This document shows positions 3,863 through 55,111 of a DNA stretch of 64,000 bases, one piece after another. The stretch is from an uncultured Bacteroidales bacterium. Its GTDB lineage: Bacteria > Bacteroidota > Bacteroidia > Bacteroidales > Bacteroidaceae. The notes below the pieces were generated by a model. That model was not told the DNA's origin. It made no database searches and saw only the letters and a list, made by a program, of their open reading frames with translations. Position 1 is the first letter of the stretch. Every line of letters starts with the position of its first letter. The stretch spans positions 1 to 64,000 of the forward strand of contig CACZAN010000009.1 in NCBI GenBank assembly GCA_902779165.1, written 5' to 3'. The translations under genes and the position numbers were made by a program.

Positions 3863-3948
3863 TCGAAATCTCGAAATGCCGATGTCGAAATGCCGAAATA
3901 TCGAAATGCCGAAATATCGAAATGTCGAAATGTCGAAAAATCGAAAAA
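3863..3948. repeat. 8-bp-period tandem array, TCGAAAT type, in the POT leader
   Basis: Ten octamers of the form tcgaaatg or ccgaaata follow head to tail, interrupted once by the hexamer ccgatg. The array ends 19 bp before the ATG of the POT gene and lies inside its predicted 5' leader. Confidence 0.8.
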
Positions 3949-11853: not shown

Positions 11854-11860
11854 GGTTTTA

Positions 11861-11940
11861 TTTGACAATTTAATAATTTGACAATTTGACGTTATTTCGT
11901 TATTTCGACATTTCGACATATCGATATTTCGACATTTCGT
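11861..11940. repeat. 8-bp-period tandem array in the cysK leader
   Basis: Ten octamers follow without a gap: tttgacaa, tttaataa, tttgacaa, tttgacgt, tatttcgt, tatttcga, catttcga, catatcga, tatttcga, catttcgt. The sequence drifts from one unit type to another while the period is kept. The array fills the leader between the -7 box at 11961-11968 and the cysK ATG at 11853. Confidence 0.8.
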
Positions 11941-18310: not shown

Positions 18311-18468
18311 TTTTTTCAACAAACAGCCTACTTTCTTCGGCAAAATTCCTTATTCCCCACACTAATTTTCAGAAAGAAAGCAAAAATGGCGCGAATCGTG
18401 CCGTAGAATGTAGCATAGCCATCACTTCAGCGCTTATTATTCTCCGTCTGCAGATAGGGGCGTACTGT

Positions 18469-18578
18469 CGAGTTCCACTGCTGGAACTCGCGAATTCCAC
18501 TGCTGGAACTCACGAATTCCACTGCTGGAACTCACGAATTCCACTGCTGGAACTCACGAGTTCCACCCTTGGAATTTC
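18469..18578. repeat. 22-bp-period array with palindromic units
   Basis: Five units begin at 18469, 18491, 18513, 18535 and 18557. The core is GAATTCCA-CTGC-TGGAACTC, or GAGTTCCA-CTGC-TGGAACTC, an 8-bp dyad around a 4-bp centre. The first four units are almost identical; the fifth is degenerate and is followed by a partial TGGAACTCC. The gap 18251-18698 holds nothing else I recognise apart from the operon promoter. Confidence 0.85.
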
Positions 18579-24765: not shown

Positions 24766-24855
24766 GTTAGCATGTTAACAGGCTAACAAGTTAACAGGCC
24801 ACAAGGCTCTCGTTTTTGTCAGTCTGTTAACGTGCTAACGTGTTAACGTGTTAAC
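24766..24855. repeat. Two 8-bp-period arrays, GTTAAC type
   Basis: Four octamers at 24766-24797 (gttagcat, gttaacag, gctaacaa, gttaacag) and four at 24824-24855 (ctgttaac, gtgctaac, gtgttaac, gtgttaac). They fill the gap between rpmH and the PASTA gene. Confidence 0.75.
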
Positions 24856-24862
24856 GGTGGAC

Positions 24863-43559: not shown

Positions 43560-44114
43560 TCAAAAGATGATGGCGAAGAAGCGCACTTCCTTGCCTCCGA
43601 GAGCCCGCATTCCGTGGGGCTGAGTGGCATCGAAGTAGATGCTGTCGCCCTCTTCAAGCACCAGTGTCTTCTGGCCTATGGTCAGTTCCAACTGGCCTTC
43701 GAGCACCATATTGAACTCCTGACCCGGGTGGGAATTGCTCTCGCGTGGAGCGTCTTCAGGTTTAGGCTCCACGGTGACGATAAAGGGGTCTGCCTTGCGA
43801 CCGCGGAAACCGCTGGCCAGGCTTTCGTAGTTGTAAGCTTTGCGGCGTTCCACCTTCAAGCCCTGACCCTTACGGGTGAGGAAGTAGGTGCTCATGTGGG
43901 GCTCTTCGCCGAAGAGCAGCACGTTCAGCTCCACGCCATATTCTTTGGCAATTTTCTGGAGGTTGGCCACAGAGAGCTCGCCCTCGCCGCTTTCCATCTT
44001 CAGATAATGTTCCAGCGAGATGCCGCAGAGGTCTGCCACCTCCTGTGCTTCGACATCCAACACATCGCGCAGTCCGCGCAGGCGTTCGCCAATCTGTTTC
44101 AGTTGTTCGTCCAT
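43560..44114 (-). CDS. XRE-family regulator with C-terminal cupin domain
   Basis: The 184-residue protein has a helix-turn-helix at about 8-62 (LRGLRDVLDVEAQEVADLCG) and a cupin at about 108-180 (SHPGQEFNMVLEGQLELTIG, GDSIYFDATQPHGMRAL). Such proteins sense a small ligand in the cupin and bind DNA as dimers. It starts 3 bp after argD and is followed by the acyl-CoA synthetase, which it may control. Confidence 0.88.
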   Translation of the reverse strand: MDEQLKQIGERLRGLRDVLDVEAQEVADLCGISLEHYLKMESGEGELSVANLQKIAKEYGVELNVLLFGEEPHMSTYFLTRKGQGLKVERRKAYNYESLASGFRGRKADPFIVTVEPKPEDAPRESNSHPGQEFNMVLEGQLELTIGQKTLVLEEGDSIYFDATQPHGMRALGGKEVRFFAIIF

Positions 44115-44117
44115 ATA

Positions 44118-45245
44118 TTATAGTGTTTTTTGTATTTTCTCCAGGAACTCATCGGCATCTGCCAAACTCAGGCACAGCGGCGGCAGCAGGCGCAGCACAT
44201 TCGTGCCCGCGCAGCCCGTGAAGACATGCTCGTCGAAGAGCAGCCGCTGGCGCACCTCCTTATAAGGCACATCCAGCTCGATTCCAATCATCAGGCCGCG
44301 GCCGCGAACCTCTTTGACTCTCTCATTATTTAATGACTTAATCTCTGAAAGCAGGTGCTCGCCCACCACGCGTGCATTCTCTATCAACCCTTCGCCCTCG
44401 ATGACATCCAGCACAGCCAGCGCTGCCGCACAAGCTAGATGGTTACCGCCGAAAGTGGTACCGAGTTGTCCATAGACCGCCTCGAACTTGGGCGAAATCA
44501 GCACGGCACCCATCGGGAACCCGTTGGCAATACCCTTCGCCACCGTGATGATATCCGGCTGCACGCCCAGCCACTGGTGAGCGAAGAACTTGCCCGAGCG
44601 ACCGTAGCCGCATTGGATCTCGTCGCAGATGAGCACGGTGCCCACCTCGTCGCAGGCAGCGCGCAGGCCTTGCATGAATTCGGCCGTTGCCAGCTGAATG
44701 CCGCCAACCCCCTGAATACACTCCACGATGCAGGCAGCCACATCGCCCTTCGCCAGTTCAGCCTTCCACGCCTCCAAGTCGTTCAGCGGCAGGAAGGTGG
44801 TATGGCCGTTGGCATTGATGGGAGCAATAATCTTAGGATTCGCCGTCACCTCCACAGCAAGCGAGGTGCGGCCGTGGAAAGCCTTTTGCGCAGAAAGCAC
44901 ACGGGTGCGGCCTGTATGGAACGAGGCCAGCTTCAGCGCATTCTCGTTGGCCTCTGCGCCACTATTGATGAGGAACAGGCTGTAATCATCGTAGCCGCAG
45001 GCCTTGCCCAAACGCTCGGCCAGCTGCTGTTGCAGCTTGTTCACCACGGAGTTGGAGTAGAAGCCCAACTGCGCCACCTGACGGCCCACAGCCTCTACAT
45101 AATGCGGATGGGCATGACCTATCGAAATGACGGCATGACCTCCATAGAGGTCCAGATATTCAGTTCCTTGCTCATCCCATACGCGACAACCCTGGCCGCG
45201 CACAATATGGATGGGAAAAAGAGGATAAACGTCGAAGAGTTTCAT
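44118..45245 (-). CDS. argD: Acetylornithine/succinylornithine aminotransferase
   Basis: The 375-residue class-III PLP aminotransferase has the block LINSGAEANENALKLA, the ring-stacking IVECIQGVGG, the pre-lysine ICDEIQCGYGRSG and the PLP lysine in TVAKGIANGFPMG. It forms acyl-ornithine, the substrate for the argF' product a few genes downstream. First gene of the arginine/proline block with its own promoter. Confidence 0.93.
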   Translation of the reverse strand: MKLFDVYPLFPIHIVRGQGCRVWDEQGTEYLDLYGGHAVISIGHAHPHYVEAVGRQVAQLGFYSNSVVNKLQQQLAERLGKACGYDDYSLFLINSGAEANENALKLASFHTGRTRVLSAQKAFHGRTSLAVEVTANPKIIAPINANGHTTFLPLNDLEAWKAELAKGDVAACIVECIQGVGGIQLATAEFMQGLRAACDEVGTVLICDEIQCGYGRSGKFFAHQWLGVQPDIITVAKGIANGFPMGAVLISPKFEAVYGQLGTTFGGNHLACAAALAVLDVIEGEGLIENARVVGEHLLSEIKSLNNERVKEVRGRGLMIGIELDVPYKEVRQRLLFDEHVFTGCAGTNVLRLLPPLCLSLADADEFLEKIQKTL

Positions 45246-45438: not shown

Positions 45439-45614
45439 CACGTCCTCCACAACAAGACGATACGTCTTCCGCAACAATCCGTCACGTCTTCCGCAAAAGG
45501 TCGTCACCTCTTCCACGAATGGTCGACACGTCTTCCACGAAAGGTCGTCACCTCTTCCACGAATGGTCGACACCTCTTCCACGAATGGTCGTCACCTCTT
45601 TTGTGAAAGGACGT
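45439..45614. repeat. 22-bp-period array of eight units
   Basis: Eight units of exactly 22 bp start at 45439, 45461, 45483 and so on. The common part is CACGTCTTCCACGAA or CACCTCTTCCACGAA followed by NGGTCGN. Units one, two and eight are the most divergent. Because 22 is not a multiple of three, selection on a protein would not preserve this period. Confidence 0.88.
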
Positions 45615-45644
45615 AGCAGCTTACACATATATATGTCTCAGCAA

Positions 45645-45688
45645 GCCTCACCAGCGAGACACGGCAGTCTCATCAGTGAGACAAAACC
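45645..45688. repeat. 22-bp-period array of two palindromic units
   Basis: Two units: GCCTCACCAGCGAGAC plus six bases, then GTCTCATCAGTGAGAC plus six bases. The second contains a perfect 6-bp dyad around TCAG. A partial GTCTCA lies just upstream. Confidence 0.7.
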
Positions 45689-45712
45689 CCACACAAAGGG
45701 ATGAGTTGAACA

Positions 45713-45800
45713 AACTATAGTTACTTAGACGACTAACTATAGTTCCACGCACGACAGACTATACTTCCTCAAACGACCAAGTATACTTCCTGCGCAATCA
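45713..45800. repeat. 22-bp-period array of four palindromic units
   Basis: Four units of exactly 22 bp each begin with a 10-bp palindrome, AACTATAGTT twice, the imperfect GACTATACTT, then AAGTATACTT. Twelve variable bases follow, usually containing ACGA. The array ends 58 bp before the -33 box of the GH3 gene. The rest of 45246-45959 holds the argD and GH3 promoters and no gene. Confidence 0.85.
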
Positions 45801-45959: not shown

Positions 45960-47135
45960 ATGAAAAAAAACTATCTATTGATGCTGGTCGCCATCATGAT
46001 TTGCGGCCTTACAGTGACCTCCTGCTCGAAAGACGATGAGGCAAATTCGGATGAGACAAATTCGCAGAAGGACGAGGTCGAAGCGCAACTCTCAAAGATG
46101 ACTCTGCGTGAGAAAGTGGGGCAGATGTTCTTTGTCCGTATGGAAACGCTCGACACCACCATTCACTGGAATGCCTATGCCGACCTCCAGGAGAATCCCA
46201 TCCTTGAGGTGAACAAGACAATGCGCGATGTGAACGCAAACTACCCCGTGGGCGGACTTATCCTCTATGCGTGGAATATCGAGAACGAGGCACAACTCTC
46301 GACACTGATTTCCCAGATACGGTCGCTCAATGGCAATCCGCTGCTCTGTATTGACGAGGAAGGCGGGCGCGTGGCTCGCATTGCCAACAACCCGAACTTC
46401 AATGTCAAGAAGTACGAGTCGATGAGTGCCATCGGTGCTACGGGCGATGCGAGAAACGCCTACGAGTGCGGAAACACTATCGGCACCTATTTGAAGCACT
46501 ACGGGTTCGACATCGACTTTGCGCCCGTGGCCGACGTGAACACCAACCCAGAGAACATCATCATCGGCGCGAGGGCTTTCAGCGATAATCCCGAAGTGGC
46601 TGCACCTATGGTGACAAACTACCTGCAAGGACTGAAGGATGCCGGTGTGACAGGGTGTATGAAACACTTCCCCGGACATGGCGACACGAAAACCGATACA
46701 CATTTCGGCTACGCATCGACTCAGAAGACGTGGGCAGAGATGATGGATTGTGAAATGGTGACCTTCAAGGCCGGCATTCAATGGGGCTGCCAGTTGATTA
46801 TGACAGCACATATCGGAGCACCCAAAGTAACGGGAACTGATGTTCCTTCAACCATGTCGTCTGTTATCCTTCAAGATAAACTCCGTGGCGAACTGGGCTA
46901 CCAGAACATCATCATCACCGATGGAATGGAGATGGGGGCCATCACTCAGCAGTACTCCAGTGCAGAGGCCGCCGTAGGCAGCATCCAGGCAGGCGTTGAC
47001 ATTGTGCTGGGTCCGAAAAATCTTGTTGAGGCATTCGATGCCGTCATCGCAGCTGTCAACAACGGTACAATCAGCGAGGAACGCATCAACCAGAGCGTAC
47101 GCCGAATTCTAAAACTAAGAATGAATAAACAATGA
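45960..47135 (+). CDS. Lipoprotein glycoside hydrolase family 3 (NagZ-like)
   Basis: The 391-residue protein has a lipoprotein signal (ICGLTVTSC) and a GH3 TIM barrel. KHFPGHGDTKTDTHFG is the NagZ-type loop that carries the catalytic His/Asp pair, LLCIDEEGGRVARI is the substrate strand, and Asp in ITDGMEMGAI is the nucleophile. It is likely to remove beta-N-acetylglucosamine from peptidoglycan or glycans, at the inner face of the outer membrane or on the surface. Confidence 0.9.
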   Translation: MKKNYLLMLVAIMICGLTVTSCSKDDEANSDETNSQKDEVEAQLSKMTLREKVGQMFFVRMETLDTTIHWNAYADLQENPILEVNKTMRDVNANYPVGGLILYAWNIENEAQLSTLISQIRSLNGNPLLCIDEEGGRVARIANNPNFNVKKYESMSAIGATGDARNAYECGNTIGTYLKHYGFDIDFAPVADVNTNPENIIIGARAFSDNPEVAAPMVTNYLQGLKDAGVTGCMKHFPGHGDTKTDTHFGYASTQKTWAEMMDCEMVTFKAGIQWGCQLIMTAHIGAPKVTGTDVPSTMSSVILQDKLRGELGYQNIIITDGMEMGAITQQYSSAEAAVGSIQAGVDIVLGPKNLVEAFDAVIAAVNNGTISEERINQSVRRILKLRMNKQ

Positions 47136-55006: not shown

Positions 55007-55102
55007 TGTTGAAACGCTGAAAAGTTGAAACGTTGAAAGTTACCTTATGCGAATTATACGTCAGCAAAGGTACCTTTCAGCTTTTCAACTTTTCCACCTT
55101 TC
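55007..55102. repeat. Two 8-bp-period arrays around the fabH promoter
   Basis: At 55007-55038: tgttgaaa, cgctgaaa, agttgaaa, cgttgaaa. At 55071-55102, in the opposite sense: tacctttc, agcttttc, aacttttc, cacctttc. A -7 box lies between them. The first array is almost the same as that at 371-402. Confidence 0.75.
55065..55072 (-). promoter_or_regulatory. -7 box of fabH
   Basis: TACCTTTG read leftward between the two octamer arrays, 72 bp before the fabH ATG. Confidence 0.5.
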
Positions 55103-55111
55103 AATGTTTGG

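Follow-up and report, generated by a model that had tools for sequence, protein, structure and literature searches.

What could lead several stretches of DNA that are unrelated in sequence to share exactly the same repeat length? This question is raised by an intergenic region of 714 bp in an uncultured Bacteroidales bacterium, within the stretch of 64,000 nucleotides analyzed here (the window). The region is flanked by a class-III aminotransferase gene (argD-like; 44118-45245, reverse strand, Pfam PF00202) and a gene encoding a glycoside hydrolase of family 3 (GH3; 45960-47135, forward strand, Pfam PF00933). A gene for a helix-turn-helix and cupin regulator adjoins the argD-like gene (43560-44114, reverse strand). 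The original prediction placed three successive arrays of eight, two, and four units between the two flanking genes, all of exactly 22 bp, and the sequence confirmed this layout. Array 1 (family A; 45439-45614, forward strand, by sequence and TRF) comprises eight units, with CGTCACGTCTTCC-like units inside. It is followed by a single palindrome that the prediction had missed, ACATATATATGT (family T; 45625-45636), of which shuffled sequences contained none. Array 2 (family B; 45645-45688) consists of two units of the form GTCTCA-NNNN-TGAGAC plus a 6-nt linker, the first being GCCTCA-CCAG-CGAGAC, while GTCTCA-TCAG-TGAGAC stands at 45667-45682. Array 3 (family C; 45713-45800) has four units, each made of a AACTATAGTT/AAGTATACTT-like palindrome and 12 further bp, with AACTATAGTT at 45713 and 45735 and AAGTATACTT at 45779-45788. 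The window holds a second array locus at 18464-18574 (family D), with five 22-bp units of GARTTCCA-NNNN-TGGAAYTC, the last of them imperfect. The palindrome and the arrays of families B, C, and D have no strand assigned. The 22-bp rows of the window arrays displayed 0% indels (TRF).

Lag-22 scores were 91.4 for array 1 (45440-45614), 11.4 for array 2 (45644-45683), and 27.0 for array 3 (45710-45791), while 300 dinucleotide shuffles of the intergenic region never scored above 11.2 at lags 18-26. Arrays 1 and 3 are certainly far beyond chance. Array 2, having two units, is borderline by period alone and is secured because the same family recurs elsewhere. The family T palindrome is centered exactly 22.0 bp ahead of the center of the first unit of array 2, and this motif forms 22-bp arrays at other loci of the genome. 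Meanwhile, arrays 2 and 3 are 43 bp apart from center to center, not 44. Dyad symmetry had been claimed for most units; this holds for arrays 2 and 3 (p = 0.01 for the latter) and not for array 1 (p = 0.52).

The prediction stood to fall if the genome contained no other 22-bp arrays, and many others were found. A similarity search of the source genome (75 contigs, 85.95% complete) with the array region of the window yielded 64 matches, including the region itself. Twenty stretches of 20 kb (400 kb together), not selected for arrays, contained 14 lag-22 arrays, including a low-complexity run. With the window added, this amounts to 17 lag-22 arrays in 464 kb, against 0, 3, 1, 1, and 0 at lags 19, 20, 23, 25, and 26. 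Lags 21 and 24 were likewise raised in this sample (11 and 8 arrays), which we tentatively put down to arrays of 7 and 8 bp, since 21 and 24 are multiples of these periods and both periods are common in the genome. Five main families are found repeatedly: A (array 1), T (ACRTATATAYGT), B (GTCTCA-N4-TGAGAC), C (AACTATAGTT), and D. Family D (GARTTCCA-N4-TGGAAYTC) has 65 sites genome-wide, with none for the reversed control, and family C is found in many related places across the genome.

The families also occur in a recurrent order. The full A-T-B-C succession of the window is repeated at two more loci (L002 and L003), and the A-T junction was seen at about ten fetched loci, half of which were fetched for matching the window. 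Some junctions are in register, with T to B measuring exactly 22 bp at three loci and 66 bp at two, and D to T exactly 22 bp at two; these may be copies of one junction. Others are off register: distances between family C and its neighbors are 19, 38, 41, 43, 61, and 64 bp, and A to T measures 34.5 or 56.5 bp by motif center.

The pitch was also measured with a free gap, by searching whole genomes for pairs of palindromes separated by 0-30 bases. All 79 family B pairs (GTCTCA-N4-TGAGAC) in five whole genomes were spaced at 22 bp (71) or 44 bp (8), and the reversed control gave 0. For family D in the source genome, 34 of 35 pairs were at 22 bp (28) or 44 bp (6), with one at 34 bp and 0 in the control. 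Among same-family spacings of 14-31 bp at loci of the source genome, 157 of 163 were exactly 22. Ten motif sets together provided 220 adjacent pairs at 22 bp, between which there were 1195 substitutions: the sequence drifts, but the unit length stays fixed, and even at about 25% unit divergence there was little length drift. A loose motif from a relative (G011) had just 38 of 70 spacings at 22 and many off pitch, which we tentatively read as the background of a loose motif. When perfect-arm palindromes were taken with no repeat criterion, center distances peaked at 22.0 (38) and 44.0 bp (20), with 11.0 (22) and 33.0 (18) also raised; 9.0 (22, equal to 11.0), 12.5, and 13.5 (17 each) were high too. 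The peaks at 22 and 44 were gone when only dissimilar palindromes were compared (5 and 4), and therefore register between unrelated palindromes rests on the T-B and D-T junctions. The distances of 11.0 (21) and 33.0 (18) stayed, which fits alternating 11-bp sites within arrays.

The internal structure of the units provided insights into what may read them. In a test of 66 arrays against a column-permutation null, 28 displayed a dyad at p ≤ 0.05, 15 of these at p ≤ 0.01, and 38 had no significant dyad; this is a strict test, in which the evident palindromes of the family D array in the window score p = 0.18. When one unit alone set the dyad axis, the core columns of adjacent units differed in 17.2% of cases vs 30.5% for spacer columns (193 comparisons, 55 arrays), and 0 of 2000 rotated controls were as extreme. 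Within dyads, 9 of 15 double changes were complementary vs 23 of 72 on shifted axes; because the axis was chosen on the same data, this does not count as proof of compensatory change.

Family B allowed a closer view, with 100 units from 19 arrays of two relatives (G047 and G017), each array being located through one or more exact units and then extended. The left arm (GTCTCA) was intact in 85 units and the right arm in 90. The center is loosely YYRR, with G at position 1 in 2 units and C at position 4 in 0, and the six-base linker is A-rich, then T-rich. Facing bases of centers and linkers do not covary across these 100 units, and those of the center match in 24 and 31 cases, below the approximately 38% predicted from column composition. 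The fact that facing bases match no more than composition predicts suggests that the 11-bp half-sites are independent, and from these sequences each half-site of family B appears to be read separately. Such a pattern characterizes protein half-sites, as opposed to a hairpin or cruciform, where facing bases must pair. Deviant half-sites of family B displayed no clear coordination across the center or the linker (3 vs 1.5 and 2 vs 0.9 expected). At one G017 locus (C28:44628) matching variants occur across the linker; L267 and L277, two loci with common flanks, do not count as independent.

The possibility that the arrays act as RNA was also addressed. The intergenic region folds better than shuffles on both strands (z of -2.8 and -2.5). 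When strand is ignored, dyad mismatches are G.T in 73 cases vs A.C in 36, but when the 18 co-directional arrays are oriented by their flanking genes, in transcript orientation, the counts are G.U 45 vs A.C 38, with no clear asymmetry. There was one terminator-like match vs 0.5 in shuffles, and Rfam gave no match at E ≤ 0.5. A structured RNA leader, one of the functions first proposed, is thus not supported, given no clear G.U over A.C asymmetry, no pairing constraint in the family B centers, and no Rfam match.

The position of the arrays relative to genes was evaluated in ten genomes, sampled regardless of arrays except for the window. Gene calls were made here from hexamer scores, expectations were derived from intergenic bases, and only arrays with both neighbors called were included, those at the ends of stretches being omitted. 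The 44 loci were distributed as 19 convergent (8.0 expected, p = 1e-4), 18 co-directional, and 7 divergent (12.8 expected, p = 0.035), a bias towards gene 3′ ends in this sampled set; two further arrays lie inside called genes. The 19 family B arrays of G047 and G017 did not repeat the convergent excess (2 convergent, 1 divergent, 13 co-directional, 3 unclassified), and 10 of the 13 co-directional ones are nearer to the 3′ end of the upstream gene. The window arrays themselves, between the argD-like and GH3 genes, belong to the divergent minority. Operators would be expected at promoters, whereas divergent loci are short and convergent loci in excess among the 44. The arrays lie mostly after genes and are therefore not ordinary operators. 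The suggestion of operators for dimers spaced two helical turns apart thus holds in part: dimer sites are supported at the DNA level, while the preference for gene 3′ ends speaks against operators.

Collectively, we postulate, with a probability of roughly 0.57, that the arrays are tracks of alternating 11-bp half-sites for one or more dimeric, possibly polymerizing, putative sequence-specific DNA-binding proteins, located mostly after genes. The basic element would be a half-site of 11 bp, or one helical turn, whose orientation alternates along the array. Two half-sites would form one palindromic unit of 22 bp, read by one dimer, and successive dimers, all placed on one face of the helix, could touch, so as to form a filament. 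Sequence would be fixed only at the bases read by the protein, leaving the bases of the center and linker loose but not their length. Families A, T, B, C, and D, together with others in relatives, would differ in protein specificity and share the same geometry. For the complex, a role in chromosome architecture or in insulating the ends of transcription would be more likely than one in controlling promoters, because arrays lie mostly just after genes, with few at divergent promoters. Some points weigh against the model. With several families in one genome, either several proteins or a very permissive one would be required, and the fixed module order at many loci is unexplained by a binding-site role alone. 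The lack of a significant dyad in array 1 and in 38 of 66 arrays, the off-register junctions, and the place of the window arrays between divergent genes also count against it.

Relatives of the source bacterium displayed the same geometry. Lag-22 arrays were found in other members of the genus (13 in 200 kb of G011, 10 in 200 kb of G017, 4 in 200 kb of G082, 3 in 100 kb of G105, and 2 in 100 kb of G136), some of low complexity, and at least one was found in six of the seven other genera of the family that were sampled (10 in 400 kb). Among 38 named rumen Prevotella-type loci (570 kb) there were 12 intergenic and 2 coding lag-22 arrays, lag 21 being equally common (14), while 42 more distant named loci (736 kb) had 1 intergenic and 1 coding. 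Twenty other Bacteroidales families (394 kb) provided 2 lag-22 matches, a number not exceeding those at lags 20, 21, 23, and 24; one of the two is a convincing array. The array class is thus not strictly confined to the family. Relatives' arrays are each built from their own palindromes, and the exact or near-exact motifs of the home palindromes have 0-2 sites each in 0.66-1.46 Mb of other sampled sequence. Hence, the statement that period and symmetry are conserved, not sequence, was borne out both in the source genome and in its relatives.

Family B is shared more widely. Its tandem pair is present in 5 of the 61 genomes drawn (the source genome, G000, and G017, G047, G073, and G106) and absent in its exact form from 56, while a few further genomes have single matches by similarity. 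In G017, G047, G073, and G106 the half-sites keep a pitch of 22 or 44 bp. A genus-wide similarity search matched 9 of 139 genomes, a count that understates relatives since at most five candidates were scored per genome. One G047 locus (L274; C44:2484-2550) carries two 33-bp units (22 + 11), GTCTCA-N15-TGAGAC, before a family B array, and these look as if 11 bp had been inserted in register. As for the locus in the window, none of the 28 other loci compared had a GH3 match in the 1.5 kb upstream of argD (L030 having almost no upstream DNA and L034 being left out), and therefore no empty site could be demonstrated. Orthologous arrays sought through their flanks among the 38 named loci gave one pairing, which was uninformative.

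A broader proposal, which we regard as speculative and would rather doubt than assert, is that Prevotella-type Bacteroidaceae possess a fast-evolving chromosomal filament system. The 22-bp geometry would be frozen while the specificity of the putative dimers changes, arrays behind genes would be coated, and arrays and their readers would co-evolve by lineage. The logic of such a system would be comparable to that of eukaryotic satellites and their binding proteins.

Selfish elements, either BIME/REP-like or MITE-like, are the rival that survives best, although we consider them unlikely. A transposase or copying enzyme would recognize the palindromes and spread the arrays, and the 3′ bias would reflect selection against insertion upstream of genes. 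The repetition of the A-T-B-C order and of fixed junctions at separate loci is in line with this, as is the restriction of most families to single genomes in our samples. At several loci the arrays are flanked by two other dispersed families for which inverted-repeat arms are suggested, a hint that mobile elements help in composite spread. An unknown copying process, as first proposed, may account for how composites reached many loci. However, the ends of the composites vary, the 45-bp flanks of 33 loci displayed no common terminal repeat or target duplication by eye, and selfish spread by itself gives no account of a 22-bp pitch common to unrelated families and genera. The genome has three matches to Y1 transposases, two of them over the Pfam cut-off, but none of the three gene loci (L167-L169, about 1.5 kb on each side) contains a lag-22 array. 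A link to RAYT was rejected, as the Y1-transposase genes have no adjoining array.

Regarding the other dispersed families, the first adjoins arrays at L003, L137, L139, L145, and L146, with a match pattern that suggests inverted-repeat arms of about 32 bp. The second lies near arrays at L002, L005, L006, L140, L144, and L155, its match pattern suggesting arms of about 49 bp. The Y1-transposase-like proteins of L168 and L169 are long (385 and 343 aa), and a 281-aa neighbor at L168 looks HU-like by eye.

The arrays resemble REP/BIME sequences, as described in the parts of the literature covered, in being dispersed intergenic palindromes with composite mosaics, regular spacing, and alternating orientation (PMC3733652, PMC2817692). 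They differ in that their units stand head-to-tail at a 22-bp pitch with short half-sites, and no GTAG tag was noticed by eye in units of families B, C, D, and T. Array 1 contains CGTC, yet without a dyad. REP elements are recognized by a GTAG/CGTC tag and a RAYT gene, and no transposase gene was found beside the arrays. The original prediction had called the arrays unlike iterons, CRISPR, and REP; its REP part needs softening in view of this BIME-like layout of dispersed mosaic intergenic palindromes. CRISPR loci do not match, since repeat plus spacer would measure only 22 bp here and the arrays are dispersed at many loci. Iteron and partition-site arrays, such as 22-bp iterons and 11-bp parC repeats, share with our arrays the regular placement of protein sites, here putative, at whole-turn spacing. 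Our arrays differ from them in being scattered over the chromosome, with no tie to replication or partition genes at the loci looked at. A plasmid or phage iteron does not fit either, given many loci per genome and, in the window, aminotransferase and GH3 genes as neighbors.

Compared with the protein-track model, an origin as neutral minisatellites is improbable. Slippage or unequal recombination would have produced the arrays, and 22 bp would be an accident inherited from an ancestral array. An array orthologous to the family D array of the window was present in one (G035, a close relative) of six relatives searched, with 2 units vs 5 in the source genome. The alignment gap is exactly 66 bp, flanked by 92% identity over 161 bp on one side and 83% over 107 bp on the other. 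Unit number probably changed by slippage or recombination in whole units, which a neutral origin would accommodate. This sole orthologous pair, differing by exactly three units, also answers the objection that unit length might drift at random between strains. A neutral origin is opposed by the core varying less than the spacer, by a unit length that drifts little despite about 25% unit divergence, by the same pitch in unrelated families and genera, and by the location bias. Quite improbable, finally, are transcribed hairpin arrays in 3′ UTRs serving as terminators, mRNA stabilizers, or small RNAs, which agree with the 3′ location, the folding scores, the unoriented G.T excess, and the transcription reported for constant-size repeats of Bacillus coagulans (in the part of PMC8625621 covered), but not with the oriented mismatch counts, the lack of covariation between facing bases of family B, the near absence of an RNA stem from palindromes such as AACTATAGTT, the terminator and Rfam results, or a fixed pitch that has no obvious RNA reason.

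The protein-track model can be placed among known repeats of constant length. In the parts covered of the work of Subirana and Messeguer, bacteria are described as having tandem repeats whose size is constant while their sequence varies, with a class of 20-23 nt in many groups (PMC8161180, PMC6749651). These repeats are noncoding; a species has several families, which share one repeat length and have a species-specific sequence (PMC8161180, PMC6749651). Their describers call them enigmatic, note that the length corresponds to two helical turns, and suggest a protein polymerizing on DNA, or small RNAs (PMC8161180, in the parts covered). The window arrays are a case of this class. One repeat length is found at many loci of the source genome in at least five unrelated sequence families, and 44 array loci lie between called genes vs 2 inside them; species specificity has an exception in family B, present in 5 of 61 genomes. 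Further work on constant-size repeats reportedly appears in a J Bacteriol paper of 2020 by Subirana and Messeguer. Relative to the class as described, our data add the alternating half-sites of family B, a palindromic core conserved over the spacer, the free-gap pitch, the preference for gene 3′ ends, and the distribution across the window's GTDB family. The terms Prevotella, Bacteroid, palindrom, and hairpin are all absent from the main text of PMC8161180. Within titles, the beginnings of abstracts, and parts of PMC8161180, the literature describes no such arrays in Prevotella-type genomes. New relative to this coverage, with possible overlap with Subirana and Messeguer 2020, are the construction from palindromic half-sites, the pitch measured with a free gap, the bias towards gene 3′ ends, and the family-wide spread.

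A comparison within the order of the source bacterium is offered by Porphyromonas gingivalis. Its BrickBuilt elements, in the parts of the report covered, are 23-nt minisatellites inside a MITE with a leader, a tail, and IS5-like terminal repeats; for strain W83, repeats of 22 nt are mentioned as well (PMC4596501). Like our arrays, they are intergenic, dispersed, and built of a variable number of units of near-equal length; unlike them, they form one sequence family with 0-6% indels within elements, whereas the arrays described here have many families, no common ends seen, and units of 22 bp (PMC4596501).

The half-site anatomy, the measured pitch, and the 3′ location make the idea of a polymerizing protein directly testable with family B or D arrays. 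The five genomes with family B, set against the 56 of 61 without its exact tandem pair, offer a route to the protein through gene presence and absence.

The window contains another class of constant period. Arrays with a period of 8 bp (or 16 bp) and differing sequences occur at 367-411, 3863-3946, 11860-11939, 24776-24856, and 55008-55104, and periods of 7 bp are also common in the genome sample.
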